The notes beneath the pieces are model-generated. The model ran no database searches, had not been told where the DNA came from, and saw only the letters and a program-made list of their open reading frames with translations. Positions 3,851 through 17,818 of a DNA stretch of 50,066 nt are shown here, in pieces; within the stretch, counting starts at the first letter, position 1, and every line of letters begins with the position of its first letter. The stretch lies in the NCBI GenBank assembly GCA_023251435.1, contig JAHEYU010000045.1, forward strand, positions 1 to 50,066, written 5' to 3'. This DNA is from Bacteroidota bacterium. Its GTDB lineage: Bacteria > Bacteroidota > Bacteroidia > Bacteroidales > Prolixibacteraceae. Position numbers and translations under genes: made by a program.

Positions 3851-4255
3851 TTACCAGTTGTAACCTGTTGTGCGGGTGCGGCTTCTCTTTACATTACCGG
3901 AGTTGTCGTAATAATTGGTAGTAGTCATTCTGGAACCGCCAAAATCGATACTGGTGGTCCTTGAACTCGACCGGCGTGTTCCATTGCTGTAAACATTGGT
4001 ACCCGACATGTAATTGTTGTTGCCCAGTGATGTTCTGGTGGTATTAACAGTGGTATAACTACGTGGTGTGCTGTAAGTCTGATTGCTCAGATAACTGTCG
4101 TTTGACTTATACGTGGTGTTGTAATTCGTGACCTTTGGTGTTGAATAAAGGGACGAATTTACCTGCGATAAGCCAGTGTTAATTGATCTTGACTGGGCCG
4201 AAGCCATTCCGATTGAACCTAAAACTACTGCTAAAATGATTACTAAATTTTTCAT
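3851..4255 (-). CDS. Secreted Ser/Thr/Asn/Tyr-rich low-complexity protein
   Basis: A 134-residue protein with a signal peptide ending in MASAQS. The mature chain is dominated by Ser, Thr, Asn, Tyr and Arg with almost no hydrophobic core, which suggests a disordered or surface-coating polypeptide. No domain is recognised. It is divergent from the caspase operon (229 nt gap). Two copies of a bipartite promoter-like element lie upstream, the nearer with its CAGAT box 42 nt before the start codon. The same element precedes the genes at 12726-12908 and 17274-17738, so this may be a target of the ECF sigma factor encoded at 6218. That link is inference. Confidence 0.6.
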   Translation of the reverse strand: MKNLVIILAVVLGSIGMASAQSRSINTGLSQVNSSLYSTPKVTNYNTTYKSNDSYLSNQTYSTPRSYTTVNTTRTSLGNNNYMSGTNVYSNGTRRSSSRTTSIDFGGSRMTTTNYYDNSGNVKRSRTRTTGYNW

Positions 4256-4297: not shown

Positions 4298-4343
4298 ATC
4301 TGGTTTGCTATAAAAAGGTAATCACTATCGGTGCATTTTTTTT
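4298..4343 (-). promoter_or_regulatory. Bipartite promoter-like element, copy A
   Basis: Read on the minus strand: an A-tract (complement of T at 4336-4343), 11 nt, TGATTACCTTTT (4324-4313), exactly 10 nt, CAGAT (4302-4298), then 42 nt to the start codon at 4255. The order fits an UP-like A-tract, a -35 element and a -10 element. It does not match the usual Bacteroidetes sigma-A form, so an alternative sigma factor is likely. Confidence 0.65.
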
Positions 4344-4378
4344 GAAAAAAATATTTTCGGGAGCGTTTACAAACATCT

Positions 4379-4424
4379 ATCGGTTGGAGTATGAAAAGGT
4401 AATCATCCAAAAACAAGATTTTTT
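4379..4424 (-). promoter_or_regulatory. Bipartite promoter-like element, copy B (tandem with copy A)
   Basis: Same layout 81 bp upstream of copy A: T-run at 4419-4424 (A-tract on the minus strand), 13 nt, TGATTACCTTTT (4405-4394), 10 nt, CCGAT (4383-4379). One base differs from CAGAT in the downstream box. It points to the same secreted-protein gene, and may also affect the divergent caspase operon that starts at 4485. Confidence 0.5.
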
Positions 4425-4484
4425 CGGTTTATTTTCTCTTTTGAATATTAATCTTATGTATCTTAGCGATTTCCTGAAAACTTA

Positions 4485-6212
4485 ATGATGGTTACCCACA
4501 GATCCTTTTTGCAGATAATCCTTATTGTTGTTTCTCTTCATGCCTACTCCGGCGAAAAGCGTGCTTTGCTTGTGGCTGTGGGCGACTACCCTGCAAATAG
4601 TAGCTGGCATAAGCTTAGTTCGGCGAACGATGCCACTTTAATGCGTACAACCTTGAAACTTCAGGAATTTGAGGATAGAAACATCGGAACACTGATCAAC
4701 CAAAAGGCCACCAAAGCCAATATCCTGAAATCGCTTGATTTGCTGGTAGCGCAATCGAATACCGGAGATGTGGCGATTTTCCATTTTTCGGGACACGGTC
4801 AGCAAATTACTGATCGAAATGGCGACGAGTTGGATGGATACGATGAAGCATTTATCCCTTATGATGCGCAAAAAGTAGTATCGGAGCAATACAAAGGGCA
4901 AAACCATTTGCTGGATGATGAACTGAACAAATACCTTTATCAATTGAGAAAAAAAGTGGGCGCCACCGGTGATGTAATCTTCATTCTGGATGCCTGCCAC
5001 AGTGGAACCGGGACAAGAAGCATAAACGACGACTATATTTTCAGAGGTACAGATCAAAAGTTTGAGCTGGAAAAGCAGGGTACGCGAACATTTACCGATG
5101 ATAAGGAACTATTTGATGAACTGCAGTTTCCAACAGAACGCGGCCAAACAGAACTTTCTCCTTTCGCTGTTTTTATGGCTTCCGGACAGCAGGAATTAAA
5201 CCTTGAAATTAAAGATCAGAACAATACCGGGTATGGCTCTCTTACTTTTGCGCTTGGAAAAGTGTTGGGCTCTCAACGGGAAAAATTAAGTTATGCCGCC
5301 CTGTTCGATTTGCTACGCAACGAAATGTGGGCGCAATTTGGAGGAAAACACCAGCAAACCCCACAATTGGAAGGTGCAACCGACCGGATGCTTTTTGCCG
5401 GGCAATCGGTCTCCATTCCTGCACATTGCCGGGTGGTGCAGGAGGTAAATACGATAAAGGCATTGGTTGATGCAGGCGAATTAAACGGCTTAACTGTTGG
5501 TTCAGAAATTAGCTTTTACCCGGTTAATACCACCGATTTAAGCAAAGCCGGGTTGTTGGCCAAAGGAACTGTAAAACGCGCAGGGCTAGCCGAAAGTGAT
5601 GTAGTTTTCGAAACGGAAATAACTAAGGGAAAGCTAAAAAATACCTGGGGTTTTGTGACCAAATACCAATCGGTAAAAGTGGATGTAAACGACACAAGGG
5701 CTGACCTTCTTAGGCGGGTTTCGGCCAGCGAACCATCTCTGAATGTTTCGTTCGAATTGGTTCATCCCAAAACATTACAGGCAATCCCTTTCAATCATTC
5801 GTTTAAAATTGGGGATTCCTGCCTGTTACGTATCACCAATAACGGTAGCAATGATGCCTTTTTCCAAATTATTGATGTTTGGCCCAACAACCAAATAAAA
5901 TTGGTATTTGATGCTACCCGCCATTCACTAAACGATCTGTACATCAAGGCAGGGCAATCCAAGTTATTCAGCAATCCCCCAATTCGTATGACCGAACCAA
6001 GCGGGGTTGAAATGTTTAAATTGGTGGCATCAGAAAAACAACTCGATTTGAGCCCGATTGTAACTAAACTACCGGCAAAAAACAGGGGCAGTTTACCAAC
6101 CGAATTTGAACAAATGGTCAGCGATTTGTTTGAAGCCGAAAACCATAGAGGCGCTGTAAGTTTTAACAAAATCAACATTTTTACCCGCACATTCACGATT
6201 AACGAAAAGTAA
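4485..6212 (+). CDS. Exported caspase-like protease (peptidase family C14) with C-terminal DUF4384-like domain
   Basis: A 575-residue protein. Residues 1-22 look like a signal peptide, so the protease probably acts in the periplasm or envelope. The caspase/metacaspase p20-like domain covers about residues 23-300: catalytic His104 sits in FSGHGQQ and catalytic Cys171 in ILDACHSGTG. The region after about residue 430 (from FKIGDSCLLRITNNG on) resembles DUF4384, a domain often attached to bacterial caspases. The gene leads a five-gene operon: the ECF sigma gene follows after 5 nt, then a TPR membrane protein, a metallopeptidase and a CHAT protease. Bacterial C14 enzymes cut after basic or acidic residues; the preference here is unknown. 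Both catalytic residues are intact. An ATG three bases later is an equally possible start. Confidence 0.88.
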   Translation: MMVTHRSFLQIILIVVSLHAYSGEKRALLVAVGDYPANSSWHKLSSANDATLMRTTLKLQEFEDRNIGTLINQKATKANILKSLDLLVAQSNTGDVAIFHFSGHGQQITDRNGDELDGYDEAFIPYDAQKVVSEQYKGQNHLLDDELNKYLYQLRKKVGATGDVIFILDACHSGTGTRSINDDYIFRGTDQKFELEKQGTRTFTDDKELFDELQFPTERGQTELSPFAVFMASGQQELNLEIKDQNNTGYGSLTFALGKVLGSQREKLSYAALFDLLRNEMWAQFGGKHQQTPQLEGATDRMLFAGQSVSIPAHCRVVQEVNTIKALVDAGELNGLTVGSEISFYPVNTTDLSKAGLLAKGTVKRAGLAESDVVFETEITKGKLKNTWGFVTKYQSVKVDVNDTRADLLRRVSASEPSLNVSFELVHPKTLQAIPFNHSFKIGDSCLLRITNNGSNDAFFQIIDVWPNNQIKLVFDATRHSLNDLYIKAGQSKLFSNPPIRMTEPSGVEMFKLVASEKQLDLSPIVTKLPAKNRGSLPTEFEQMVSDLFEAENHRGAVSFNKINIFTRTFTINEK

Positions 6213-6217
6213 ACGAT

Positions 6218-6808
6218 ATGGATGACACGATAATACTTCAGAAAATTAAAGAGAATGACCAAAGGGTCATTACTGATTTATATAAACGATATTTCAAAGA
6301 AGTAATTTCGTATCTGCAAAAGAATTATCCAAGCTTCACTAAGCAGGATGCGGAGGATATTTTCAATAATAGCTTTTATATTCTTTGCGATAATATTAAA
6401 GCGGGAAAGAATAAAAAGGATGGAGCATTAAAACAATACATCTATGGCATTTGCTGGCACTTGGCTTATGACGAAACGAAGCGTAGAGATAGGGCAAGAG
6501 GAAAATCGGCCACCTTTGATCCTCCTATCCCGGATGAAGAGGACTGGATTGAGTTAGATCGAAAAACAACACTATTAACTGATACTGTAAGTAAATTAAC
6601 CGAACCATGTAAGTCGCTGTTAGAACTCTTTTGGTTTCACTTAAAACGAGACGCTGAAATTGTACAACTGATGAAATACTCTTCGGCCGATACAGTTAAA
6701 ATGCAACGATCGCGCTGTATGAGAACACTAAAAAAAGTGTATCTGAGTGAATTATTAGCTGAAAACCTGATTACCATTTCAGAGAAAAAACGATTAATAG
6801 GAGAATAA
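6218..6808 (+). CDS. RNA polymerase sigma factor, ECF type
   Basis: A 196-residue sigma-70 family protein of ECF size. The sigma-2 region is at residues about 15-95 (DLYKRYFKEVISYL, the DAEDIFNN segment, and the -10-binding part ending ICWHLAYDETKRRDR). A sigma-4 helix-turn-helix follows from about residue 125 (LTEPCKSLLELFWF to SRCMRTLKKVYL). It is translated within the caspase operon, 5 nt after the caspase stop and 3 nt before a TPR membrane protein that occupies the usual anti-sigma position. Its likely targets are the bipartite elements at 4298, 4379, 12939 and 17772, which are not sigma-A-like. That link is inference. Confidence 0.85.
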   Translation: MDDTIILQKIKENDQRVITDLYKRYFKEVISYLQKNYPSFTKQDAEDIFNNSFYILCDNIKAGKNKKDGALKQYIYGICWHLAYDETKRRDRARGKSATFDPPIPDEEDWIELDRKTTLLTDTVSKLTEPCKSLLELFWFHLKRDAEIVQLMKYSSADTVKMQRSRCMRTLKKVYLSELLAENLITISEKKRLIGE

Positions 6809-6811
6809 ACT

Positions 6812-7537
6812 ATGGATACACAAGATAAAATCGAAAAATACCTGCAAAACAGAATGATTGAAAGCGAAAAAGCCGAATTTGAAAACGAACTGGAAAACAA
6901 TCCTTTGTTAAAAGAGCAACTGGAATTGGAACAGGCTATTGTAGAACAAATCCGCAACCGGGCTTTTGTTGACAAACAAATCGTTGCAGCCAAAAATGAG
7001 CTAAGGCGCGGCAAAACGCTTCGGCTTGTTTTGTATTCTGTCACTTCCATTGCCGCAATTTTTATACTTTCTTTATTCATTCCCGGATTATTCACAAATC
7101 CCGATTTCGACCAGCTGTACGCCTCTAATTTCACCACCTATACCAACGATTACATAATGGTTGATGGAGTTACACGCGGAGAAACCACCATTGATTCGTT
7201 GCAGGTAAAGGCCATGAAAGCTTACGAAAACGAAAATTTTACGGAGGCTGAAACACAATTCAACCAAATCCTGGCAGAAAACGAAAACCCGGAACTGCGT
7301 TTTTATTTGGCAGTTAGCCAATTACAAAACGGCAAAACCGAATTAGCCCAACAAACACTCGAAACACTCTATGTACAAACGTCCGATTACTGGTATTACG
7401 AGCAAACCCGCTGGTATTTGGCATTGGTACATTTAAAACTGCACCACAAAACCGAAGCAAAAAAATACCTGAATGAGCTGATAAAGTTGGAAGGAAAGAA
7501 TTTGGATAAGGCGAAAGAAATGATCAATAAGCTTTAA
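6812..7537 (+). CDS. Single-pass membrane protein with periplasmic TPR domain; possible anti-sigma factor
   Basis: A 241-residue protein. Residues 1-69 form a charged, helical N-terminal part (KIEKYLQNRMIESEKAEFE, NPLLKEQLELEQA) like that of Bacteroidetes anti-sigma/FecR-type proteins. Residues 71-92 form one TM helix. Residues about 130-240 carry TPR-type repeats (MKAYENENFTEAETQFNQIL, LRFYLAVSQLQNGKTELAQ). With positively charged residues just before the helix, the N-terminus would be cytoplasmic and the TPRs periplasmic. Its place 3 nt after the ECF gene makes an anti-sigma role plausible, with the TPR part able to meet the exported proteases of the operon. No zinc-binding anti-sigma motif is visible. 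Confidence 0.7.
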   Translation: MDTQDKIEKYLQNRMIESEKAEFENELENNPLLKEQLELEQAIVEQIRNRAFVDKQIVAAKNELRRGKTLRLVLYSVTSIAAIFILSLFIPGLFTNPDFDQLYASNFTTYTNDYIMVDGVTRGETTIDSLQVKAMKAYENENFTEAETQFNQILAENENPELRFYLAVSQLQNGKTELAQQTLETLYVQTSDYWYYEQTRWYLALVHLKLHHKTEAKKYLNELIKLEGKNLDKAKEMINKL

Positions 7538-7563
7538 AATTCAAATCTATAATCAGAAAAATC

Positions 7564-8478
7564 ATGGATGCAAAAGTAGACGGTATTTATCCGGTAAGAG
7601 TGTTAAAAGATGAAGTCCTTAAATGGTATATTACAATATGTGATAGTTCTACAATGGAACATGAACTAAAGTATAATGGATTAAATAAGAAACTGAAATA
7701 TAAGGTAAATGATAAGAAAATAACAGATATTGCTGAAATTCTTAAAACTGATAAAAATCAAATAATTATTTATGAAAATTTTTGTCAATTTTTATGGTCA
7801 TTTTCTTATTCAATAATTGTATTTCTTGATGAGGCTTTCATTAGACCTCGTGTAGAAGAAAATTATAATTTCAAAGAAAATGAATTGCTTGGCATTGCAA
7901 CAGAGAGTATTGAGGCTGCATTCGGATTGTTTTCTAACCCTGATGTTGACACATTTTTTAGATTGCCGAATCCAGAAGCAAAAGAATATAAAGAAGATAA
8001 ACATGTTTGCGCGATAGAAAAAGCTTATTGTTTTGGCATTTCTTTTATCCTTTTACATGAATTTGGACATCAATTTCTTGGACATCTTGAATATGAACCA
8101 GAATCAATACAGCAGCAAAAAAAAGAAGAGGAAGATGCTGATGATTATGCCTTTTCTGTTCTTTCTGATCATTTTGACAAAGAATATGGTAATGCAATTA
8201 AAGTTGGAATCGTCATTAGTCTGATAACCTTGATTTTTACTGATGAAACATTATCCGGTGGAGAAACTCATCCAGACCCTCATCAAAGAATAATGCGAAT
8301 TATCGAAAAAATGGAACTCGAAGACAACCATAACTTATGGGCATTAGCTGCAGTAGCGTTTAAACTTTGGGCATTTAGATATAACAAACCTCTTGAATTC
8401 CCAGATACCGCTGAGTCGTATAAAATACTGTTTGACAAAGCTTTTCTCGAGCTTAATTATTTGAAAAGTCCATTTTAG
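7564..8478 (+). CDS. HExxH zinc metallopeptidase, Lit (U49)/M48-like
   Basis: A 304-residue soluble protein without signal peptide, so probably cytoplasmic. Residues 165-169 are HEFGH, the zinc-binding HExxH. A downstream EEEDADDYA segment (about 188-196) fits the third-ligand region (E..AD..A) of M48- and Lit-type peptidases. The size and the position of the motif are reminiscent of Lit (peptidase U49), the E. coli phage-exclusion protease that cleaves EF-Tu, but similarity is limited to the active-site region as far as I can judge by eye. The gene is visibly more AT-rich than the genes before it and sits 26 nt after the TPR gene and 27 nt before the CHAT gene. The substrate is unknown. Confidence 0.7.
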   Translation: MDAKVDGIYPVRVLKDEVLKWYITICDSSTMEHELKYNGLNKKLKYKVNDKKITDIAEILKTDKNQIIIYENFCQFLWSFSYSIIVFLDEAFIRPRVEENYNFKENELLGIATESIEAAFGLFSNPDVDTFFRLPNPEAKEYKEDKHVCAIEKAYCFGISFILLHEFGHQFLGHLEYEPESIQQQKKEEEDADDYAFSVLSDHFDKEYGNAIKVGIVISLITLIFTDETLSGGETHPDPHQRIMRIIEKMELEDNHNLWALAAVAFKLWAFRYNKPLEFPDTAESYKILFDKAFLELNYLKSPF

Positions 8479-8505
8479 AAAATTTATTTTGAACTTAAAA
8501 TAATT

Positions 8506-11500
8506 ATGAAGCTGGTTTTCCGAAATGCCGCATTATTCTTTCTTTTACTTCTTTCTATTCAAACTGTTTTTGCCCAATCGCAAGTGCAGCTAAACATCCG
8601 TATGCTTCAAGCTGCCAAAAACGATCAAGCTGATTCCGTTAAATATTGGTTAGATAAAGGAGCGGATGTAAATTATACTGATTCAATAGGTCAAAGTTCT
8701 TTAAATTTTGCTGCGAACAATAACAATATTAAATTGAGCGAATTTTTAATTCAGAAAGGGGCAAATGTTAATGGTATGGAAAATTCATTTCCGCCAGTTT
8801 GCAGTGCAGCCTACTCTGGAAATCTCCGAATCTGTCATCTTTTATTTTTGAATGGGGCAAATCTAAATAATTTAAACAACTATAGTGGAAAAACATATTC
8901 TGACTATGTAAAAGAATTTGGATACTTGCGAATTGCTGAATATTTAGAAAATCCTCAGAAATATAGTCAGACCCCAACTTGTTTAGAGTATTATCAATAC
9001 TCTAAAAACGCTTTAAATGTTAATGACACACTAAATGCATTAAAATATGCTGATTTAGCATTCCAAACAGGAGAAGTAGAATTGTCACAAACGTCGAATC
9101 AATTTGGAAATTTTATTAATGATATAGCAATCATTTATTATTATTTAGGTCAATTTAATAAGGCAGAATCACTACTTTTAAATGCACTCAAATTGAATGA
9201 ATTCTATGATGGCAAGGAGAGTGCTTCATATGCAGGTCTTTTAAATGTAGTAGCCCTTAATTACCAGAATCAGAAAAAATATAATGAAGGGGAACCATAT
9301 TTCAATGCAGCTATATCGATCTATCAAAAATTATTTGGAGAAAATAGTCCAACATATCTTTCAACGCTTACCAGCTTTGCCTATTTTTTTCTTATTCAAG
9401 AAAAATTTGATAAAGCTGAAGCTTTGTTTCAACAAATTCAGAAAATACTTCTCAATAAAAATGAAACTCAAAATTCTGAATATGTCAGTACGCTCAATAT
9501 CTTAGGTGAAATAAAATTGATTAAAGGTAATTTTGTCGAATCTGAACAGCTTTATAAACAAGTTCTAAAGATTCAAAAAGAGTTAACAGGAATTTATGAT
9601 ACTGATTATGCAAGATATTCCAATAATTTAGCTCAAGTTTACCTTAAACAGGATAAATACAATGAAGCCGAGAGTTTATTATTGCTGACTTCAGAAATTC
9701 AAAAAACAATGATAAGCGAGAACCACCCAGATTACGCTGAAACACTGAGCAGTTTGGCTAGAATATATGTTAAGAAATATCAATTTAAGAAGGCTGAATT
9801 ATTATATCAGCATGCACTTTCCATTCAAAGAGAACATTCAATTGAAAATAGTATTAGCTCGGCCATTACAATGAATAGTTTAGCAACGCTATATGAAGAA
9901 ACATATCAATGGGAAAAAGCAGAAGAATTATATCTAAAATCTCTTCAAATTGCAAAAGAGCTGGAAGTAAAAGATACTCAGAATTATAGTTCGATGCTTA
10001 ATAATTTAGCCGGATTTTATTCAAACGTGGGACAATACAATAAAGTTGAACCATTATACCAGGATGCACTTGAATTTTTAAAGAAAATATATGGTGAATT
10101 CCATCCAAGTTATCTTAATTGTTTACACAACCTAAGTGTGTTTTATACGAAGATAAAGTTATACGATAAAGCATTTGCAACCTGTGGACTTGCATTAGGT
10201 TTCACTAACATAGCTCAAGGAAAGGAGAATGTCGATTATCTCAGGTATAATAATTCGATGGCCTCATTAAGTATGAATTTGTATTGTTTTGATCTTGCGG
10301 ATTCAATTTTAAACTCCTCAATACAAATTTGTGAAAAGTTAGGATTAGATACTCATGACCCATTATTCCTCAATACAATTGAACTTCTGGCAACATTGTA
10401 TTCTCATCAAAAAAAATATGATAAGGCAGAATCATTGTTAATGCAGTTGCTTGATCCGATGAGAAATGATTTAGGAGAAAAAAGTTTAGAATTAGCATCC
10501 CTATTTCAGAAACTTGGAATATTTTATAGTAATCAATGCAAATTTGAACTTGCAGAACCGTTCTACAAAAAAGCACTTGAAGTTAAAAAAGAAATAGAGG
10601 GTGAAAATCATCCTGATTATATTGAATTACTGAATAGTTTTGGTATGGCTTGTCATGAAAATGGAGATTATGATCAAGCCGAAAAATATTACCTTGATGC
10701 TTCAACTAAATTAACAAATCAAGTTAAATTCTCATTTTCCTATCTTTCTTCACGAGAGAGAGAAAAACTCTGGGAAGAGAATATATCCATTTTTAATGTT
10801 TATAATATTTTTATAAAGGATAGTTACTCTAGGAATTTAGGTATTTCAAAGTTTGCATATAACAATGAATTATTTATTAAAGGATTGCTCTTAAATACAT
10901 CGTTGGATATAAAAAGTAAGATATTAAATTCAAATGATTCAACACTTATAGACGGTTGGAAAACACTAAGGATAATTAATGACCTAATATTCGGCTCAGA
11001 TAGGAAACAAGAAGAACTACTAAAATTGTTACCTACGGCTGACAGTATTGATAAAATCCTGACCAAAAAATCGCAGATATATAGCCAGACCCAGGCCGAA
11101 CTAAAAATACAATGGCAAGATGTTCAGGCCAAACTCAAAGAAGGCGAAGCTGCCATAGAATTTTCTTCATTCAGTTATTTTCATAAAGAATGGACCGACA
11201 GCACTTTATATTGCGCTTTGGTGCTAAAAAAAGGAATGGAATATCCGGTAATGGTTCCGCTTTGTGAGCAAAAGCAGTTAGATAGTCTTTGGGTTGGTGG
11301 CAAAATCGCACCCAACCTGTTGTACGCTTCGCGGGGCGTAACTGCCGAGTATAAAGATCAATTGCCCAACGGCAAAAGGCTTTACCAGCTTATCTGGCAA
11401 CCCTTGGAGAAAGAACTTCAGAATGTTAAAACGGTGTATTATTCGCCCAGCGGTTCGTTGCACCAGGTTTCGTTTGCCGCATTACCAATAGATACAACCA

Positions 11501-12321
11501 ATTATTTGTGCGACAAGTATAATTTGGTGCAGTTATCAAGCACACGCCAATTAGCCACAGCGGCATGGCAAGCCAAACCTGCAGCAATAAGCAGTACCGT
11601 GCTTTTCGGGGGTATTAAATACGATTTTACACCCGATTCAACTCGAAGTTCAATAACATTCGGTTTTCTGAAAGGAACCAAAGATGAAGTAGAAACCATA
11701 TCGGCAACGCTTCAGACTAAAAGCATAAAAAGCACGCTTTACACTGGTATTAATGGAAACGAAGAAGCCTTCAAGGCTTTAAACAATCAAAATATCAACG
11801 TTTTGCACATTGCCACGCATGGTTTTTTCAATCCCATCGAGAAAGAGAAACCACAGGATTTAGATCGTATGATGTTAATGGGCGAACAAAGATTCCGTTA
11901 TTCACCCAATCCATTGCTCCGTTCCGGTTTAATACTGGCCGGAGGAAACCGGACGTGGAAAGGCGGAGAACCGCCAGCTGGAATGGAAGATGGCATTCTT
12001 ACTGCACAGGAAATATCGGAAATGGATTTGCACCAAACCGAGTTGGTGGTTTTGTCGGCCTGCGAAACGGGTTTGGGCGATGTAAACGGCGGAGAAGGTG
12101 TTTTCGGTTTGCAACGTGCCTTTAAACTGGCCGGTGTAAAAACCATCATCATGAGCCTCTGGAAAGTGAACGATGAAGCAACCTCCGAAATGATGCAGTT
12201 GTTTTACTCGAAGTGGCTGGGTGGCATGGATAAGCGTGAAGCCTTTCGCCTGGCCCAGCAGGAGCTAAAAGAGAAGTACAGCGATCCGTATTATTGGGCG
12301 GGTTTTGTGATGGTAGATTAA
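8506..12321 (+). CDS. Exported ankyrin-TPR-CHAT protease
   Basis: A 1271-residue protein. Residues 1-24 form a signal peptide ending VFAQS. About 31-150 are ankyrin repeats (KYWLDKGADVNYTDSIGQSS; LIQKGANVNG; LFLNGANLNN). About 195-745 are some twelve kinesin-light-chain-type TPRs of about 42 residues. The C-terminal third is a CHAT domain (peptidase clan CD) with catalytic His1105 (HIATHG) and Cys1186 (LSACETG), both intact. CHAT proteases with TPRs act as regulated endopeptidases, for example the TPR-CHAT partner of type III-E CRISPR. The signal peptide sets this one apart and points to the periplasm. DNA for the ankyrin/TPR part (to about nt 11040) is AT-rich, while the CHAT part has the composition of the caspase gene, suggesting domain-level recombination. 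It is the last gene of the operon. Confidence 0.88.
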   Translation: MKLVFRNAALFFLLLLSIQTVFAQSQVQLNIRMLQAAKNDQADSVKYWLDKGADVNYTDSIGQSSLNFAANNNNIKLSEFLIQKGANVNGMENSFPPVCSAAYSGNLRICHLLFLNGANLNNLNNYSGKTYSDYVKEFGYLRIAEYLENPQKYSQTPTCLEYYQYSKNALNVNDTLNALKYADLAFQTGEVELSQTSNQFGNFINDIAIIYYYLGQFNKAESLLLNALKLNEFYDGKESASYAGLLNVVALNYQNQKKYNEGEPYFNAAISIYQKLFGENSPTYLSTLTSFAYFFLIQEKFDKAEALFQQIQKILLNKNETQNSEYVSTLNILGEIKLIKGNFVESEQLYKQVLKIQKELTGIYDTDYARYSNNLAQVYLKQDKYNEAESLLLLTSEIQKTMISENHPDYAETLSSLARIYVKKYQFKKAELLYQHALSIQREHSIENSISSAITMNSLATLYEETYQWEKAEELYLKSLQIAKELEVKDTQNYSSMLNNLAGFYSNVGQYNKVEPLYQDALEFLKKIYGEFHPSYLNCLHNLSVFYTKIKLYDKAFATCGLALGFTNIAQGKENVDYLRYNNSMASLSMNLYCFDLADSILNSSIQICEKLGLDTHDPLFLNTIELLATLYSHQKKYDKAESLLMQLLDPMRNDLGEKSLELASLFQKLGIFYSNQCKFELAEPFYKKALEVKKEIEGENHPDYIELLNSFGMACHENGDYDQAEKYYLDASTKLTNQVKFSFSYLSSREREKLWEENISIFNVYNIFIKDSYSRNLGISKFAYNNELFIKGLLLNTSLDIKSKILNSNDSTLIDGWKTLRIINDLIFGSDRKQEELLKLLPTADSIDKILTKKSQIYSQTQAELKIQWQDVQAKLKEGEAAIEFSSFSYFHKEWTDSTLYCALVLKKGMEYPVMVPLCEQKQLDSLWVGGKIAPNLLYASRGVTAEYKDQLPNGKRLYQLIWQPLEKELQNVKTVYYSPSGSLHQVSFAALPIDTTNYLCDKYNLVQLSSTRQLATAAWQAKPAAISSTVLFGGIKYDFTPDSTRSSITFGFLKGTKDEVETISATLQTKSIKSTLYTGINGNEEAFKALNNQNINVLHIATHGFFNPIEKEKPQDLDRMMLMGEQRFRYSPNPLLRSGLILAGGNRTWKGGEPPAGMEDGILTAQEISEMDLHQTELVVLSACETGLGDVNGGEGVFGLQRAFKLAGVKTIIMSLWKVNDEATSEMMQLFYSKWLGGMDKREAFRLAQQELKEKYSDPYYWAGFVMVD

Positions 12322-12353
12322 AGTTGATAAGTGGGTGAAAAATATTGAAACAT

Positions 12354-12542
12354 TCATTTAAAGAGCTCGCTGATAGGTTTCACTTTTCCTTGCTTTATCT
12401 CGCGGATTCCCCTCTTGACTTCGTCGTACGTAGTTGATTTTTCAATCTGTACATCTCCATCGTTAACCATGTCTTTAATAAGGCTTAATAACTGCTTGGC
12501 CTTACCCGACTTTGTGTTTACTTTTATTGTGATGGTTTCCAT
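12354..12542 (-). CDS. Small antitoxin-like protein, apparently without a toxin partner
   Basis: A 62-residue protein beginning METITIKVNTKSGKAKQLL, with a charged middle and ending REIKQGKVKPISELFK. This layout (short beta strand, helix, then an 'I..IK.GK.KP..EL' tail) is common in small Bacteroidetes type II antitoxin-like proteins. No toxin gene adjoins it: downstream it converges with the CHAT gene (32 nt gap), and upstream is a hairpin and another small gene. A TAACTTTG box (complement of 12564-12571), 22 nt before the start, may be a sigma-A -7 element, but no clear -33 TTG is seen. The antitoxin role is a weak inference. Confidence 0.5.
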   Translation of the reverse strand: METITIKVNTKSGKAKQLLSLIKDMVNDGDVQIEKSTTYDEVKRGIREIKQGKVKPISELFK

Positions 12543-12633
12543 TGTGTTACATTTTTGCTGTCACAAAGTTAAAGGTTTTCTGGTACGTAAGCTTTTTTCA
12601 CTAAATATTTTGTTGGATCCTACCAGGTTTTAG

Positions 12634-12805
12634 GGTTGCCAAATTGTTCATTTCAAAACAACCGGCGGGGCTCCTCAAAGAACCCCGCCGGTAATGCACA
12701 AATGAGAATTACTTTTGGAATCCGGTTAATACCCTAACCCATCCATCAAGTCGTCCATGTCAATGCCATCGTGATATTCGCCACATTGACCATCGGTCAA
12801 GGCAT
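12634..12805. repeat. Direct repeat R1 (about 170 bp), partner of R2 at 14006-14176
   Basis: Spans a terminator hairpin and the 3' half of the small acidic gene. The matching stretch at 14006-14176 is nearly identical from the hairpin to the sequence GGCAT, at an offset of 1371 nt. The homology stops sharply after GGCAT. The hairpin itself is inverted between copies. Confidence 0.85.
12661..12692 (-). terminator. Strong hairpin terminator behind the small acidic gene (R1 copy)
   Basis: A perfect 10-bp stem, ACCGGCGGGG (12661-12670) with CCCCGCCGGT (12683-12692), and a 12-nt loop. On the minus strand it is followed by TTGTTTTG, so it should end transcription of the gene at 12726-12908. On the plus strand there is no T-run. 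Confidence 0.8.
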
Positions 12806-12908
12806 AAAAAGTATCTTCTCTAAGTTGCTTTTGGTCATCACGATCATCATAACCACAATCATCATCATAGTTGTCAACTTCTTCGGTGATTTCATTATTT
12901 GCTTCCAT
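12726..12908 (-). CDS. Small highly acidic Asp/Gly/Tyr-rich protein, hypothetical
   Basis: A 60-residue, strongly acidic protein: 17 of 60 residues are Asp, with few hydrophobics and two cysteines (CGYDD, QCGEYHD). The C-terminus is a repetitive DDLMDGLGY. No family is recognised; such composition suggests a disordered, nucleic-acid-mimic or metal-binding chain, but that is speculation. It has its own bipartite promoter-like element (CAGAT box 30 nt before the start) and its own hairpin terminator, so it is a complete minimal transcription unit. A truncated second copy of its 3' half lies at 14097-14176, showing that the gene has been duplicated. Confidence 0.6.
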   Translation of the reverse strand: MEANNEITEEVDNYDDDCGYDDRDDQKQLREDTFYALTDGQCGEYHDGIDMDDLMDGLGY

Positions 12909-12938
12909 AATTAAAGAATTTATTTGTTACAATCCTTA

Positions 12939-12986
12939 ATCTGAAAGTTGATCAAAAGGTAATCATGCAAATATGGTTTTTTTTTT
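12939..12986 (-). promoter_or_regulatory. Bipartite promoter-like element, copy C
   Basis: On the minus strand: a ten-base A-tract (complement of 12977-12986), 11 nt, TGATTACCTTTT (12965-12954), 10 nt, CAGAT (12943-12939), then 30 nt to the start codon at 12908. Same boxes and same 10-nt spacing as copies A and D. Confidence 0.65.
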
Positions 12987-13123
12987 GAAACGCATAGAAA
13001 AACCTGGCATTGACGACACATAAACTCGATTCATTTTGTAAGAATGGGATTTATTCAGCTTTTAATTTCAAGCATAAAACCGCTTCCGTGTATGTTTTTT
13101 ATTTCTACATACGGGTCGTTGGC

Positions 13124-13183
13124 AAACTAAAAAAGAAGTTGAGCGAACTGTATTTTTGGACGGGGTTTGTGATGGTAGATTAG
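13124..13183 (+). pseudogene. Remnant of the 3' end of a second CHAT gene
   Basis: Sixty nucleotides align without gaps to the last 60 nt of the CHAT gene (12262-12321): I count 49 identical bases. The translation keeps the pattern ELKEKYSDPYYWAGFVMVD-stop as KLKKKLSELYFWTGFVMVD-stop, the last five residues being identical. Nothing upstream continues the match. A paralogous CHAT gene once ended here and was deleted. Confidence 0.8.
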
Positions 13184-13186
13184 AGC

Positions 13187-13217
13187 TTGTCTACCGATGA
13201 AATTTTTATTTTCTTTG
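13187..13217 (+). promoter_or_regulatory. Sigma-A-like promoter for the antitoxin/GNAT pair
   Basis: TTG (13187-13189), 20 nt, TTTCTTTG (13210-13217), one base off the Bacteroidetes consensus TAnnTTTG. The start codon of the antitoxin-like gene lies 20 nt downstream. The -33 TTG begins 4 nt after the CHAT remnant's stop codon. Confidence 0.5.
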
Positions 13218-13237
13218 CAGTATAAATTATTCTAATC

Positions 13238-13396
13238 ATGGCAATTGCAATAAAAAGTATTCCGATACTGAAAAGTAAAGATGCAAACGCTTTTATCAAA
13301 AAAGCAGATGCGAAATCGAAGAAACGTGCTACTGTTGATTTCAGTAAGCAAGTCGAGACTTCGCATACCATTCTGGAGAAAGCTAAACTGCATTAA
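13238..13396 (+). CDS. Small antitoxin-like protein paired with the GNAT gene
   Basis: A 52-residue basic protein starting MAIAIKSIPILKSKDANAFI. The N-terminal strand plus lysine-rich helices fit the small antitoxins that precede GNAT toxins of the TacT/AtaT type. It lies 12 nt upstream of the GNAT gene in the same reading frame, with only its TAA stop and four codons between them. Its downstream partner makes the antitoxin reading reasonable; no DNA-binding motif is sharp enough to prove it. Confidence 0.6.
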   Translation: MAIAIKSIPILKSKDANAFIKKADAKSKKRATVDFSKQVETSHTILEKAKLH

Positions 13397-13408
13397 TCCT
13401 CTTTCATT

Positions 13409-14002
13409 TTGAGCTTTTTAGCAACCGAATGCACGTTTTCAGTGCTCGATGAAACGGTTATCAAATCGAGTAAATTGTTTGATTGTGGTCATTCCGATTT
13501 GAATGATTTCTTTTCCAGCGATTGCATTGCCTATTCAAAAGAACTTCTCGGGAAAAGTTATTGTTTTCGGTTAGATGCTGATCCTTCAATTATAACTTGC
13601 TCATTTACTGTCTCAAATGACAGTATAAAAGTAAATTCATTGCCTAATAGTCGAAAAAAGAAGCTAATAAAATCTATTCCCAGAACTAAACAATTCAGGA
13701 GCTATCCGGCAGTACTTATTGGCCGATTAGGTGTTAATCAGAACTTTAAAGGGAAAGGAATTGGCAGGGAATTATTGAATTTTATTAAATCATGGTTTAT
13801 TGATTCCAACAACAAAACAGGTTGCCGTTTCCTTGTAGTTGATGCCTATAACGAACCCATTCCTGTTAAATATTATCAAAGCAATGATTTTGAGTACTTA
13901 TTTAGCTCCGAGGAGCAGGAAAAGAAATATATGGGAAAACAGGTTGGTGAAGCACTCGAAACAAGATTAATGTACTTTGACTTAATAGTACTATCCTCAT
14001 AG
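13409..14002 (+). CDS. GNAT N-acetyltransferase, possible TacT-like toxin
   Basis: A 197-residue protein. The acetyl-CoA-binding motif A is seen as GRLGVNQNFKGKGIGRELL (about residues 108-126), followed by CRFLVVDAYNEPIPVKYYQ, as in TacT/AtaT-like enzymes that acetylate aminoacyl-tRNA. The only plausible start is a TTG at 13409 (or the ATT before it): no ATG occurs in frame until far into the C-terminus. The upstream antitoxin-like gene is in the same frame, so readthrough of its TAA would make a fusion. Plain GNAT enzymes with other substrates remain possible. The gene ends 4 nt before repeat R2. Confidence 0.7.
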   Translation: MSFLATECTFSVLDETVIKSSKLFDCGHSDLNDFFSSDCIAYSKELLGKSYCFRLDADPSIITCSFTVSNDSIKVNSLPNSRKKKLIKSIPRTKQFRSYPAVLIGRLGVNQNFKGKGIGRELLNFIKSWFIDSNNKTGCRFLVVDAYNEPIPVKYYQSNDFEYLFSSEEQEKKYMGKQVGEALETRLMYFDLIVLSS

Positions 14003-14031
14003 GTTGGTTGTCAAATTTTTCCTTTCAAACA

Positions 14032-14063
14032 ACCGGCAGGGTTCTTTGAGGAGCCCCGCCGGT
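14032..14063 (-). terminator. Hairpin terminator in R2, inverted relative to R1
   Basis: ACCGGCAGGG (14032-14041), loop TTCTTTGAGGAG, CCCCGCCGGT (14054-14063). The loop is the exact reverse complement of the R1 loop, and one stem base (A at 14038) breaks the pairing. On the minus strand it is followed by TTGTTTG. It now probably ends the transcript of the genes at 14168-17738. Confidence 0.7.
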
Positions 14064-14096
14064 AATGCACAAATGAGAATTACTTTTGGAATCCGT

Positions 14097-14176
14097 TTAG
14101 TATCCTAAGCCATCCATCAAGTCGTCCATGTCAATGCCATCGTGATAATCGCCACATTGGCCATCGGTTAAGGCAT
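14097..14176 (-). pseudogene. Truncated copy of the small acidic gene
   Basis: Encodes ALTDGQCGDYHDGIDMDDL and the rest of the C-terminus to GLGY-stop, differing from the intact copy (12726-12908) by one residue (Glu to Asp). The N-terminal 35 residues and the promoter are missing; the break lies at 14176, inside the 3' end of the neighbouring 178-residue gene. Confidence 0.8.
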
Positions 14177-14704
14177 TTCGGAATTATTATTCAATAAATC
14201 AGCAATAATAATTGCGGGAGCTTCCTGTTCTTCAATAAGTCGATTAAATGCCGAATAAATATCTTTTGTCGTATTGTAATGACACATCATTTGTTCATAA
14301 GTATCACCACCGTATAGAAGTGGTATTAACAATTCTCTTTTTTGACGATACTCAACATACCCACCATTAACATTTATTACTACAACTCCATTGTTTAACA
14401 GGTTGTTAAAATGAGCTGCCAATATAAAAATATCCGTAGTTAACTCCGTTGGGAAGTTCTTTAATACTTTCACAGCGCAATAATAATATCCATCATATAA
14501 CACATAATAGAATGTTTCTTGTCTTCCATCACAGATTTCAAAAGATGTTTCGATTGTTTTTTCTTTCTCATAAATGCCTGATTTCCATTTTGCTTCTTGA
14601 TGAAGATTTTTCAAATCCTTCCAAACTATTAATTCCTGTTTTTGGACGCTTAATGATAATCGATAAATTCTTTGTAAGTAAAATTTCAGTTTGTCTATAG
14701 TCAT
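14168..14704 (-). CDS. Hypothetical protein, possibly YbjN-like fold
   Basis: A 178-residue soluble protein. The middle (FYYVLYDGYYYCAVKVLKNF, AAHFNNLLNNGVVVINVNGG, then YVEYRQKRELLIPLLYGG) and the helix after it have the alternating pattern of YbjN-like/T3SS-chaperone-fold proteins; this is a tentative fold guess. Its last two codons (Met-Pro) and the TAA stop lie in repeat R2, so the present C-terminus was created or altered by the duplication. It is the last gene of a four-gene minus-strand operon, 39 nt after the helicase. Confidence 0.55.
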   Translation of the reverse strand: MTIDKLKFYLQRIYRLSLSVQKQELIVWKDLKNLHQEAKWKSGIYEKEKTIETSFEICDGRQETFYYVLYDGYYYCAVKVLKNFPTELTTDIFILAAHFNNLLNNGVVVINVNGGYVEYRQKRELLIPLLYGGDTYEQMMCHYNTTKDIYSAFNRLIEEQEAPAIIIADLLNNNSEMP

Positions 14705-14743
14705 AATTTTATTTCTTAAAATTTCAGTTTACTGTTAACCATT

Positions 14744-16780
14744 CTATTCAAAAACCTGTGCTTTTACGACACGCAGGTAGTTGATAAAGACCTCATCTTT
14801 TAGTTGGTAGTGCAGTGGCAATAGTGAATAAAAAAGATCGCTGCCAAGTGGTTGATTAAAAGCATCGATCAACGGATTATTCGAAGTTTCTTCTTCCTTA
14901 AGTAAGCCATTTCTTTTTCGAAGAAATTCGCGTAACCGGTAATGAATTTCCAGGGTGTTGGGGGCATAATCGAGCAATGCCTGAAATAAACCGGGTGATG
15001 GGATGTTGCAATAAATCTCGTTTAGAATACCAGCTCGGTAAAACAGTTTTGGCTCCAGCTTCTTGTCAACCAGCGAATAAATCTGATCGTACAATTCATC
15101 AGCCTCCTGCATCCGGTTTAGCAAAGTCAAAATTCTCGATTTTACATACAGCGCATTCACTGTTCCCGGTCTGCTTTTCAGGTACAAATTGATGTAGTTT
15201 AAACCTATTTCCGGCAGGTTGGAATACAAAGCGCAAACAGCTTTAACAAAATTGGTTTCCGGCGAATCCGGAATCCGGTTCATATCAAGATTAAAATTTG
15301 CGAATAAACCATCGTCGCAAACTACAAAATCCAATGCCCGGTTAAAAAGCTGAAAACAATCGCCGGGATTCCGTCGGCACAAAGCTTCTACACCTTTATC
15401 AATTAGAACTTTAGCAAGCTGGTCGAATTCTTTCTTTTCTAAAAGTTCGTTTACACTTCTGCCATAGTCAATCTCAAAATCAATGGTTTCCTTGTCATTA
15501 AAATCTGCTGCAAAGTTCAATACTTCATCGCTCGTTTTCACATGGTTGAAAATGACAGGACTGGTTAAATAAAGTCCTTCCAGTGTTCTGGCACGGCTAA
15601 GAGCCACATAAGTTTGGCCGTTCGCGAAAACACCCCGGCTAAGGTCAATGCGTACATGATCGAATGTTAGCCCCTGGCTTTTATGAATAGTTATGGCCCA
15701 CGCCGTTTTTAATGGAAATTGAGTGAAAGTGCCAATTATTTCTTTCGTATTGGTTTTGGTTTGTTTGTTGTATTCGTACCTAATATTTTCCCAGGTAACC
15801 GGAGACACTGTCAGTACCCGGTCATTTTCCAGCTTTACTTTAATGGTCTCATCAGTTAAATCGGCTATCTCTCCCAAAGTTCCGTTTACCCACCTGCCTG
15901 AAGGATCATTTCGGGTAAACATGACCTGTGCACCTACTTTTAGCGTCAATTCCTTTTCAGTCGGCGAGTTCTTTTCGTTAAACTCACCATTTATTGTTGC
16001 CTGATAGGTAAATGGTGAAAGGTTAATTTTTTCAAGCGCAGCATCATTAATACTTTTTGCAGTAACATTGTGACTGGTCAGGGTGATGATCATTTTGTCG
16101 TTCTCCGGATTGCACACCCTTGAATTCAGCCTTGTTAAATCAGCAGACGTAGTTTGTTTGTTACGGATACGTTCGAGAATGTCAACAAATGCAGTGTCCG
16201 ATTGCCGGTAAATTTTCCGAAATTCAATAGATACCAATTTCATCCGGTCGAATACCCTGGCTTTAAAAAAATAAGGTTTGTCGGTACTATAATTCTGCAT
16301 GATCAAATCTTTATCGTCATCAGTACTAAGGATAGGTTCCAACTGAAAAAGATCGCCGGTAAATACAACTTGTTTTCCTCCAAAAGGCAATGTACTTGTG
16401 CAGCAGAATTTTAGCATACGGTCAATAGCGTCAATCAAATCGCATCGTACCATCGAAACTTCATCAATAATAATCGTGTCAGTATTCTGAATAATCTCTC
16501 TTCTTTCGGTAGTTATTTTCCCATTATCATTAAAATCCAATGCATGAAGCGGGAATCGGAAGAAAGAATGGAGGGTTTCTCCTCCTGCGTTGATTGCAGC
16601 AATACCAGTCGGCGCTAAAACAATAAACTTTTTAGCGACCAATTCCTGAACATTTTTCAGGAATGTGGTTTTGCCGGTTCCAGCACGTCCGGTTAAAAAG
16701 AAAGAACTGTTGGTATGGGCAATCAGGCTAAAAGCCAGTTGAAGCTCGTGGTTTTGAGTATCTATTTGTGTTGTTTCCAT
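14744..16780 (-). CDS. PIF1/Dda-like superfamily 1 helicase with C-terminal TPR-like region
   Basis: A 678-residue protein. Walker A is GRAGTGKT (residues 31-38); a Walker B segment (TIIIDEVSMV), GDLFQLEPI, TIHKSQGLTF and TYVALSRARTLEGLYL follow in the order of PIF1/RecD-type SF1B DNA helicases. The last about 220 residues are helical with TPR character (FVKAVCALYSNLPEIGLNYI). The start at 16780 is chosen because a longer start at 16861 would overlap the upstream gene by 74 nt; the chosen one leaves 7 nt. The gene sits in an operon with two small paralogous proteins of unknown function under promoter element D. DNA unwinding in the cytoplasm is likely; the pathway is unknown. Confidence 0.85.
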   Translation of the reverse strand: METTQIDTQNHELQLAFSLIAHTNSSFFLTGRAGTGKTTFLKNVQELVAKKFIVLAPTGIAAINAGGETLHSFFRFPLHALDFNDNGKITTERREIIQNTDTIIIDEVSMVRCDLIDAIDRMLKFCCTSTLPFGGKQVVFTGDLFQLEPILSTDDDKDLIMQNYSTDKPYFFKARVFDRMKLVSIEFRKIYRQSDTAFVDILERIRNKQTTSADLTRLNSRVCNPENDKMIITLTSHNVTAKSINDAALEKINLSPFTYQATINGEFNEKNSPTEKELTLKVGAQVMFTRNDPSGRWVNGTLGEIADLTDETIKVKLENDRVLTVSPVTWENIRYEYNKQTKTNTKEIIGTFTQFPLKTAWAITIHKSQGLTFDHVRIDLSRGVFANGQTYVALSRARTLEGLYLTSPVIFNHVKTSDEVLNFAADFNDKETIDFEIDYGRSVNELLEKKEFDQLAKVLIDKGVEALCRRNPGDCFQLFNRALDFVVCDDGLFANFNLDMNRIPDSPETNFVKAVCALYSNLPEIGLNYINLYLKSRPGTVNALYVKSRILTLLNRMQEADELYDQIYSLVDKKLEPKLFYRAGILNEIYCNIPSPGLFQALLDYAPNTLEIHYRLREFLRKRNGLLKEEETSNNPLIDAFNQPLGSDLFYSLLPLHYQLKDEVFINYLRVVKAQVFE

Positions 16781-16787
16781 TGTGAAT

Positions 16788-17270
16788 TTAATTAAGCATG
16801 AGACGTGTTGACTCGGGTAATCTTTTGATGTTTTCAATTGAATTTTGGTAGGTATCTTCAATTATTCCAATGGTCAATTCTTTTAATGTCTCATCGGAAC
16901 CAGTTCCACCACTCAAGGTCATTTGGGTTTTTAAGTAATCAAATGTGAGGGCAATAACCTCATTCTTAATTGTTCCCGTATCATAGAATAGTTTGTCAAA
17001 TTTTTTCTTTCCAATCAAAGTCATCTGGCTGCCATCGAAAGCATAAATTTCAACCTCGTCGATGTAAGTCCAGTTTTTATAAAGACCAATGTGCTCAACC
17101 ATCACAAGTCTTTCCGAAAACCGTAAGCCTTTATAGTACATGTTTCCACTTTCACTTGTATAAGTATTCGATAGAAACATTTTCTGTGTGCTGTCATAAA
17201 TCGGGATGTTTCCCCTTTGATTGCCGTAAGTTGGCAATACCTTGTCTAAAAAGCTGCTGGATATTTTCAT
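16788..17270 (-). CDS. Hypothetical protein, paralogue of the adjacent upstream gene
   Basis: A 160-residue soluble protein without signal peptide. It shares with the next gene upstream the core pattern YTS..GN.YY.G.RFS.R (here YTSESGNMYYKGLRFSER), a following beta-rich stretch (VEIYAFDGSQMTLIGKKKF) and a C-terminal 'LSGG' segment. The pair therefore arose by tandem duplication. Seven nt separate it from the helicase start, implying joint translation. No known family is recognised. Confidence 0.65.
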   Translation of the reverse strand: MKISSSFLDKVLPTYGNQRGNIPIYDSTQKMFLSNTYTSESGNMYYKGLRFSERLVMVEHIGLYKNWTYIDEVEIYAFDGSQMTLIGKKKFDKLFYDTGTIKNEVIALTFDYLKTQMTLSGGTGSDETLKELTIGIIEDTYQNSIENIKRLPESTRLMLN

Positions 17271-17273
17271 CGC

Positions 17274-17738
17274 TTATTGGTTTAGTTGTTTCATGTAGGG
17301 AAGTTGATTTTTCATAGTATCGGAAATCAACGATTGTGCGAAAGAATCCAATACGTTTTCTTCAACATGACCGCCAGAAAGAAGGGCCTGACCACGTAGG
17401 TATTCCTTAACCAAATTTTCGGACTCGTCTCTAATAAATGAATCAATGTGAATCTGGCAATGGTAACTCTTTTCAGCAATCAGAGTAGCCTCTTTTCCGT
17501 TAAATCCGAAGATTCTTAATCCATTGAGGAAGGTGTAGAAAAAACCTTCACCGATTTGTTGAGTGATGATAATACGATCCGAAAATCGAACTCCCTCATA
17601 ATAAGTGTTCCCCGCCTGACTTGTATATCCTTGCGTATGAAGGATGTTTTTACTGGCATTGTAAGTCAGTTCCGCATTTTTAAAAACAGCAGGCATTGCT
17701 TTGTCTGCGATAACCATGATTTCATTTTTTGTTTCCAT
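17274..17738 (-). CDS. Hypothetical protein, first gene of the helicase operon
   Basis: A 154-residue soluble protein with the shared core YTSQAGNTYYEGVRFSDR, then a beta-rich segment (LRIFGFNGKEATLIAEKSYH) and a C-terminal LSGG stretch as in its paralogue 3 nt downstream. Identity outside the core is low, so the duplication is old. Promoter element D ends 33 nt before the start codon. The tie to a PIF1-like helicase suggests a DNA-linked or adaptor role, but nothing in the sequence proves it. Confidence 0.65.
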   Translation of the reverse strand: METKNEIMVIADKAMPAVFKNAELTYNASKNILHTQGYTSQAGNTYYEGVRFSDRIIITQQIGEGFFYTFLNGLRIFGFNGKEATLIAEKSYHCQIHIDSFIRDESENLVKEYLRGQALLSGGHVEENVLDSFAQSLISDTMKNQLPYMKQLNQ

Positions 17739-17771
17739 TTGAATAAGAATTTGAATGTTATTTTCTTATTC

Positions 17772-17818
17772 ATCTGAAAACCGTTCAAAAGGTAATCATG
17801 AAGCGACTGATTTTTTTT
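17772..17818 (-). promoter_or_regulatory. Bipartite promoter-like element, copy D
   Basis: On the minus strand: an eight-base A-tract (complement of 17811-17818), 12 nt, TGATTACCTTTT (17798-17787), 10 nt, CAGAT (17776-17772), then 33 nt to the start codon at 17738. It would drive the four-gene helicase operon. Confidence 0.65.

Follow-up and report, generated by a model that had tools for sequence, protein, structure and literature searches.

The window analyzed here is positions 1 to 50,066 (in nucleotides, nt) of contig JAHEYU010000045.1 of the Bacteroidota assembly GCA_023251435.1, part of a genome of 5,729,331 bases in 148 contigs. It holds four exact copies of a promoter-like element, all on the minus strand and all within an island of caspase and CHAT protease genes. 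These elements are probably the promoters of an extracytoplasmic function (ECF) sigma factor of 196 amino acids (aa), encoded in the same island (6218..6808, plus strand), which would serve a local regulon of three transcription units, be held by an anti-sigma factor with tetratricopeptide repeats (TPR) and be released by proteolysis. The element consists of an A-tract, 11-13 nt, TGATTACCTTTT, 10 nt and CMGAT; it is unique to the island within its genome and is conserved together with one clade of ECF sigma factors in four genomes. Judged from these comparisons, the three units very probably form a private ECF regulon.

Copy 1 (4298..4343, core 4298-4324; A-tract and TGATTACCTTTT-N10-CAGAT) lies 42 nt upstream of the ATG of a probably secreted protein rich in serine, threonine and asparagine. 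Copy 2 (4379..4424, core 4379-4405), which reads CCGAT, stands in tandem with copy 1, 81 base pairs (bp) farther upstream in the gap before the divergently oriented caspase gene, and has no start codon of its own. Copy 3 (12939..12986, core 12939-12965) lies 30 nt upstream of the ATG of a 60-aa acidic protein, and copy 4 (17772..17818, core 17772-17798) lies 33 nt upstream of the ATG of a 154-aa protein heading a helicase operon. All four copies have an inner spacer of 10 nt, and the A-runs (8, 6, 10 and 8 A in copies 1 to 4) end 11-13 nt upstream of TGATTACCTTTT. The positions, the strand and the range of 30-42 nt before three start codons are as given in the initial annotation, and its claim that the element is confined to the island was borne out: exact matches in the 5.73-Mb genome number four, all in the island rather than many and scattered, with no other in the window, and a backwards-read control gave none. 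With up to three mismatches the genome yielded 80 matches (control 35), four of them with no mismatch, none with one, two with two (C11:10290 and window position 6768) and 74 with three; in the window, up to two mismatches gave five matches versus a mean of 0.02 in 100 shuffles. The four copies stand clear of the genomic background. A scan for sigma-70-type promoters gave 54 matches versus 45.6 expected, an uninformative difference.

Relatives of the ECF were sought in overlapping samples of roughly 900 genomes (140 of the family, 393 of the order, 71 of the family of genome G168, and 375 of the class). Among the 140 family genomes, G116 and G121 hold the closest relatives, both at 39% identity (E 5e-33 and 4e-32, the following match being at 1e-16); in these two genomes the caspase, ECF and anti-sigma genes stand in this order and the caspases are 47% identical to that of the window. 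Among the 393 order genomes, 27 had an ECF match at E 1e-16 or better; G168, from another family, stands out with 184.8 bits under a G168-free model (next, G340, 133.4 bits), its ECF being 43% identical to that of the window and its gene order ECF-anti-sigma-CHAT. In the 71 genomes of that family and the 375 of the class no further ECF approached this score (the strongest, under a four-sequence model, had E 5e-33 and 4e-32); the order and class searches scored at most eight first-look ECF candidates per genome, so that a clade member may have been missed. The gap in bit scores (333-346 versus 140) is inflated because the model was built from those four ECFs, and the grouping of the clade therefore rests on an unrooted tree of 61 ECFs, in which a single branch separates those of the window, G116, G121 and G168 from the rest (support 93/87; 94% of 200 bootstraps). 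The ECF and anti-sigma genes are common to all four loci in the sequence examined, the contigs of G116 and G121 ending in the anti-sigma gene.

The element is present at the ECF locus in all four genomes with an ECF of the clade, and the sites in G116, G121 and G168 lie at most 7 kb from the ECF gene and 26-40 nt upstream of start codons. G121 has TGTTTACCTTTT-N10-CAGAT and TGTTTACGTTTT-N10-CCGAT and G116 two like sites, which precede divergent genes next to the caspase-ECF operon; in each genome one site lies in the caspase-divergent gap, like copies 1 and 2, and the other stands before a gene homologous to that of the 154-aa target in the window. The two sites in each (at most three mismatches) compare with 0.10 expected in G121 and 0.07 in G116, and none of 200 shuffles reached two. 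In G168 the site reads TGATTACCTTTT-N10-CGGAT and is 6.9 kb away from the ECF gene; 28 nt downstream of it begins a 137-aa protein whose start resembles a signal peptide. A matrix made from the other eight sites scores this one at 22.6 bits, versus a mean of 0.007 such sites in 150 Markov replicas. Counts of A at positions -19..-14 in the nine sites are 6, 6, 6, 6, 5, 4, 5, 5 and 6. Regarding the five sites outside the window, where the A-tract was unused in finding them, 25 of 30 letters are A, and 1,000,000 resamplings of intergenic 6-mers never gave so high a value. All nine sites also have A at +29, three bases past GAT. The element is always oriented toward the gene, and in eight of the nine sites a start codon follows 26-42 nt downstream, which together with the A-tract and the fixed 10-nt gap agrees with the earlier interpretation as UP element, -35 and -10.

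The degenerate pattern TGWTTACVTTT-N11-MVGAT was searched in 60 genomes. All nine matches in the four clade genomes lie at the ECF loci; the 56 other genomes gave 12 matches in 10 genomes, none with at least five A at -19..-14 and seven inside open reading frames (ORFs) of at least 100 aa. Around other ECF relatives, 33 stretches (32 loci; L122-L134 and L197-L216) held no site of at least 20 bits (best 17.8), whereas the four clade loci hold 4, 2, 2 and 1. This co-conservation, in four of four clade genomes versus none of the 33 other stretches, supports the initial proposal that the elements are targets of the 6218 sigma factor. A second caspase-ECF-anti-sigma module in the window's own genome (L077; G000:C92:46000-58000), with a CHAT gene downstream, has no element (best 13.9 bits), and the same is true of the stretches around homologues of the 154-aa protein in G103 and G105 (best 7.4 and 7.8 bits), two genomes without a clade ECF (at E 1e-8 nothing was seen in G103, and in G105 a distant relative with E 6.8e-9). 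Four loci from a named collection (24-32% identical) gave best element scores of at most 13.2 bits. With the caspase as search handle, 14 of the 393 order genomes matched at E 1e-70 or better; the 13 other caspase loci had neither an ECF of the clade type nor an element within about 1.5 kb, and two of these genomes, G340 and G514, in which a more distantly related ECF lies 8 and 17 kb from the caspase, had no element there either.

Exact matches to the plain pattern in the family outside the window's genome number three (G037, G088 and G127), and a plain-pattern site in G004 has no long gene downstream. An extended pattern with one mismatch matched 23 of 32 genomes, including a stray in G116 (C189), and is not specific; its exact matches are nine in the four ECF genomes and one in G010 that by eye resembles a terminator hairpin. 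A related, different element, [AG]GGTTACCTTT ... GATNAA with an upstream A-run, was seen in genus mates (G013:C120:102714, G016:C176:7127, G019:C53:10166, G021:C454:11195 and G021:C495:15633). Two of three checked sites precede a frame of at least 60 aa (75 aa in G013 and 356 aa in G016, the latter by eye resembling a membrane-fusion protein of a secretion system), and the G019 site does not; this element is possibly the promoter of another ECF.

All three target units are on the minus strand. The secreted protein (3851..4255, 134 aa) has a signal-peptide-like start. The acidic protein (12726..12908) contains 21 aspartate or glutamate and 3 lysine or arginine residues and is followed by a terminator-like hairpin (12692-12661). 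The helicase operon comprises the 154-aa protein P154 (17274..17738), its 160-aa paralogue P160 (16788..17270), a PIF1-like helicase (14744..16780) and the 178-aa protein P178 (14168..14704), which has no Pfam match. P154 belongs to a rare family, found in none of 197 other order genomes and in four of 139 other family genomes (G116, G121, G103 and G105), and stands under an element in the first two; its predicted structure (mean predicted local distance difference test (pLDDT) 83) matched nothing in the PDB at E 0.001 or better. The flanks of copies 3 and 4 align from the A-tract to about codon 7, the middles of the two units are unrelated, and positions 12656-12805 and 14027-14176 form a 150-nt direct repeat (91%), in which the 3' end of the acidic gene plus terminator recurs at the end of the helicase operon. 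The three units had been described as unrelated-looking; for the acidic unit and the helicase operon this needs amendment, as they share both ends by duplication, and copies 3 and 4 are therefore not independent. Since the middles differ, one unit looks like a shell with an exchanged middle, and the pair looks like a case of cargo exchange inside a conserved shell. Between the two units, on the plus strand at 13239-14002, a small ORF (by eye) is followed by a GNAT-like acetyltransferase (13409-14002; Acetyltransf_1, E 1.1e-4), an arrangement resembling a toxin-antitoxin pair.

The ECF gene is the second gene of a tight plus-strand operon (gene gaps 5, 3, 26 and 27 nt) that encodes a caspase, the ECF, a TPR membrane protein, a Lit-like protein and an ankyrin-TPR-CHAT protein. 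The caspase (Peptidase_C14; 4485..6212; PF00656, E 1.8e-22) has intact SGHG and DACHSG motifs. The 6218 product, the proposed reader of the elements on the evidence of NCBIfam, Pfam and its orthologues, is by similarity to sigma-70 regions 2 and 4 an ECF-type sigma factor: TIGR02985 (E 4.5e-10) and TIGR02937 (E 3.2e-8) match residues 19-173, both under their curated cut-offs, and a profile of the four clade ECFs matched the sigma factor 8z6g, SigH and SigW in the PDB at E 0.002-0.004. The putative anti-sigma factor (6812..7537) has N-terminal helices, one hydrophobic stretch from residue 72 and a C-terminal TPR region; its structure model (pLDDT 79, predicted template modelling score 0.56) places helices at 3-11, 17-29 and 31-86, with low pLDDT in 65-94. 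The Lit-like metallopeptidase (7564..8478; NCBIfam NF007238, E 1.3e-29, 103 bits of 274 needed; PADLOC Lit, E 1.3e-22) has HEFGH at residue 165 and no signal peptide was seen in it; a peptidase of this phage-exclusion type would be an unexpected member of an ECF-CHAT operon. The ankyrin-TPR-CHAT protein (8506..12321; PF12770, E 2.6e-69) has intact ATHG and SACETG motifs and a probable signal peptide. The N-termini of the caspase and the CHAT protein are likely signal peptides by eye and hydropathy only, the caspase being the weaker case (no 19-residue stretch of at least 1.6). The 3' end of the CHAT gene (12265-12323) is repeated at 85% as a remnant at 13127-13185, 862 bp downstream, which suggests past duplication of part of the island. 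A full-length serpin, of a protease inhibitor family (40702-41928; PF00079, E 6.1e-118), is encoded on the same contig, 28 kb from the operon.

No conserved element was found upstream of the caspase, ECF, anti-sigma, Lit-like and CHAT genes of the window. A near-match with two mismatches on the plus strand (6768-6794) falls within the final codons of the ECF gene, with the next ATG 17 nt downstream; it was considered as an anti-sigma promoter and set aside as a probable coding coincidence, the protein end ISEEK/ISEKK being kept in G116 and G121 and the DNA element not. The initial annotation had drawn the exported proteases into the regulon; since no conserved element precedes their genes, they are candidate controllers and not shown targets.

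The following mechanism is proposed. A holoenzyme with the 6218 sigma factor would read the UP-like A-tract, the -35 TGATTACCTTTT and the -10 CMGAT, and its regulon would comprise the secreted protein, the acidic protein and the P154-P160-PIF1-P178 operon. The ECF would be made from the caspase-ECF-anti-sigma-Lit-like-CHAT operon, which has no conserved element of its own, and the TPR anti-sigma factor (6812) would probably keep the sigma factor at the membrane. Its release would probably be by proteolysis, with the exported-looking caspase and CHAT protein as candidate triggers, a step proposed because of the gene order and of the precedent of Craspase (see below).

A substantial rival, to which somewhat less than an even chance is assigned, accepts that the ECF drives the elements and holds that an ordinary membrane anti-sigma factor senses some other signal, the proteases being downstream or separate. 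Anti-sigma factors with a single membrane helix are common, and no caspase was seen in the 19-kb stretch of G168. Against such independence, the caspase-ECF-anti-sigma order recurs in the window, G116, G121, L077 and L132, and CHAT or caspase genes lie near the ECF (in the 5-20 kb fetched) in 12 of 21 other near relatives and in 7 of 12 hand-picked more distant ones; for caspase genes taken separately the counts are 6 of 21 and 0 of 12.

It is improbable, though worth weighing, that the element is instead an operator or binding site of another co-conserved regulator, or acts at the RNA level. The lack of a conserved element at the ECF operon and of a start codon at copy 2 would suit such a role, and sigma binding is a prediction from sequence comparison. 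Promoter function is favored by the layout described above (A-tract, -35, fixed 10-nt gap, -10 and a nearby start in eight of nine sites), by the ECF and anti-sigma genes being those shared by all four loci in the sequence examined, and by the covariation of the -35 letter with the region-4 helix, TGATTAC occurring with DTVK[MN]QRSRCM (window and G168) and TGTTTAC with DVVKVKRSRCM (G116 and G121), which amounts to two groups only. Very unlikely is a dispersed repeat that arose by duplication and has no regulatory meaning: copies 3 and 4 do share flanks, and their units share 3' ends (91% over 150 nt), but copies 1 and 2 show by eye no clear likeness to copies 3 and 4 beyond element and A-tract, TGATTACCTTTT and CAGAT are unchanged in copies 3 and 4 although their flanks have diverged, and the same element in other flanks in G116, G121 and G168 largely refutes it.

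Several observations weigh against promoters read by the 6218 sigma factor and a protease-triggered release. Regarding the sites, the independent events are few, given the common ancestry of copies 3 and 4 and the close relationship of G116 and G121. Eight of the nine sites went into the matrix, and all nine were known when the degenerate pattern was drawn up, so that finding the element in the clade loci is partly built in; this does not apply to its absence elsewhere, to the G168 site or to the A-tract. Two of the 12 outside matches to the degenerate pattern have four A in the place of the tract, equal to the weakest of the nine sites (G121, four A), and three of the 12 precede an open frame within 150 nt. 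The plain pattern with one mismatch matched 28 of the 140 family genomes, with 34 matches in the 27 others versus 8 for the control, an excess which means that this pattern alone is not specific across genomes. Regarding the proteins, Sigma70_r2 of Pfam matches the ECF at E 0.007 (16.6 of 24 bits, under the cut-off), the best match of the anti-sigma N-terminus among solved anti-sigma factors was RsrA at a non-significant E of 0.62, and caspase and CHAT protein are no more than candidates for anti-sigma cleavage. Autoregulation, frequent among ECFs and not obligatory, finds no counterpart in the window, the plus strand having no element in promoter position before 4485.

Bacterial caspases and CHAT proteases are widespread, and to our knowledge their outputs outside Craspase are mostly unknown. 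If the proposed regulon is correct, a defined promoter, its sigma factor and a short target list would give a direct readout, in that a reporter on the element would show the module firing, and the element could serve as a sequence tag for targets in other genomes. The four clade loci with the element and the 33 other stretches with none would be natural pairs for studying ECF-promoter recognition, and a switch equipped with proteases may control a small private gene set.

The island can be compared with several known systems. RpoE-RseA and SigW-RsiW are the classical pairs of ECF and membrane anti-sigma factor. As in these, the ECF gene is followed immediately by that of a predicted one-helix membrane protein with a helical N-terminus; unlike in these, the protein carries a C-terminal TPR region, caspase and CHAT genes share the operon, and no gene of the DegS or RseP type was seen in the operon. 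A literature search returned no paper on the promoter or on a Bacteroidota module of caspase, ECF, TPR anti-sigma factor and CHAT protein, which does not establish absence from print.

EACC2 caspase systems, according to a study of TRADD-N domains (PMC8195603), have a caspase, an ECF sigma factor and a TPR gene in one neighborhood, a grouping found likewise in the island; unlike there, the scans reported neither an EACC nor a TRADD-N domain in the island proteins that they covered, and the caspase matched the model of EACC1-associated caspases weakly (E 5e-9, 35.9 of 140 bits). For the ECF54 group, a review (PMC8999054) describes CHAT, subtilase or carboxypeptidase genes nearby and a proposed proteolytic control. 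The likeness is one of gene context, an ECF gene with a CHAT-domain gene in a conserved setting; the same review treats the control of ECF54 as free of anti-sigma factors, whereas a putative one follows the ECF gene in the island.

The closest functional precedent may be the type III-E Craspase, in which, as reported (PMC10028731), the TPR-CHAT protease Csx29 cleaves Csx30, the inhibitor of an ECF-like sigma factor, CASP-sigma, whose motif has three strong matches in its own locus and one outside under the q-value limit. Common to that system, as described there, and to the proposed reading of the island are a CHAT-family protease, a sigma inhibitor (putative in the island) and an ECF sigma factor encoded together, and a small regulon with the motif mainly in the locus of the sigma factor. 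In the island, unlike in Craspase, the operon also contains a caspase and a Lit-like peptidase, the putative inhibitor is a TPR membrane protein, and the proteases look exported. No Cas family was found among the window proteins scanned with Pfam, NCBIfam and PADLOC (a set without some of the smaller ones and without proteins from elsewhere in the genome), and the window contains no CRISPR-like array, defined as a direct repeat of at least 22 nt spaced up to 120 nt. Tentatively, and with the balance of probability against it, the island may be a CRISPR-free, envelope-facing counterpart of Craspase, in which exported caspase and CHAT proteases would cleave the TPR anti-sigma factor in the membrane, releasing the ECF to switch on private, exchangeable effector genes (the PIF1 helicase operon and the small secreted and acidic proteins) flanked by a promoter and a terminator end that are both conserved; the island would then be one instance of a Bacteroidota-wide caspase/CHAT-ECF module.

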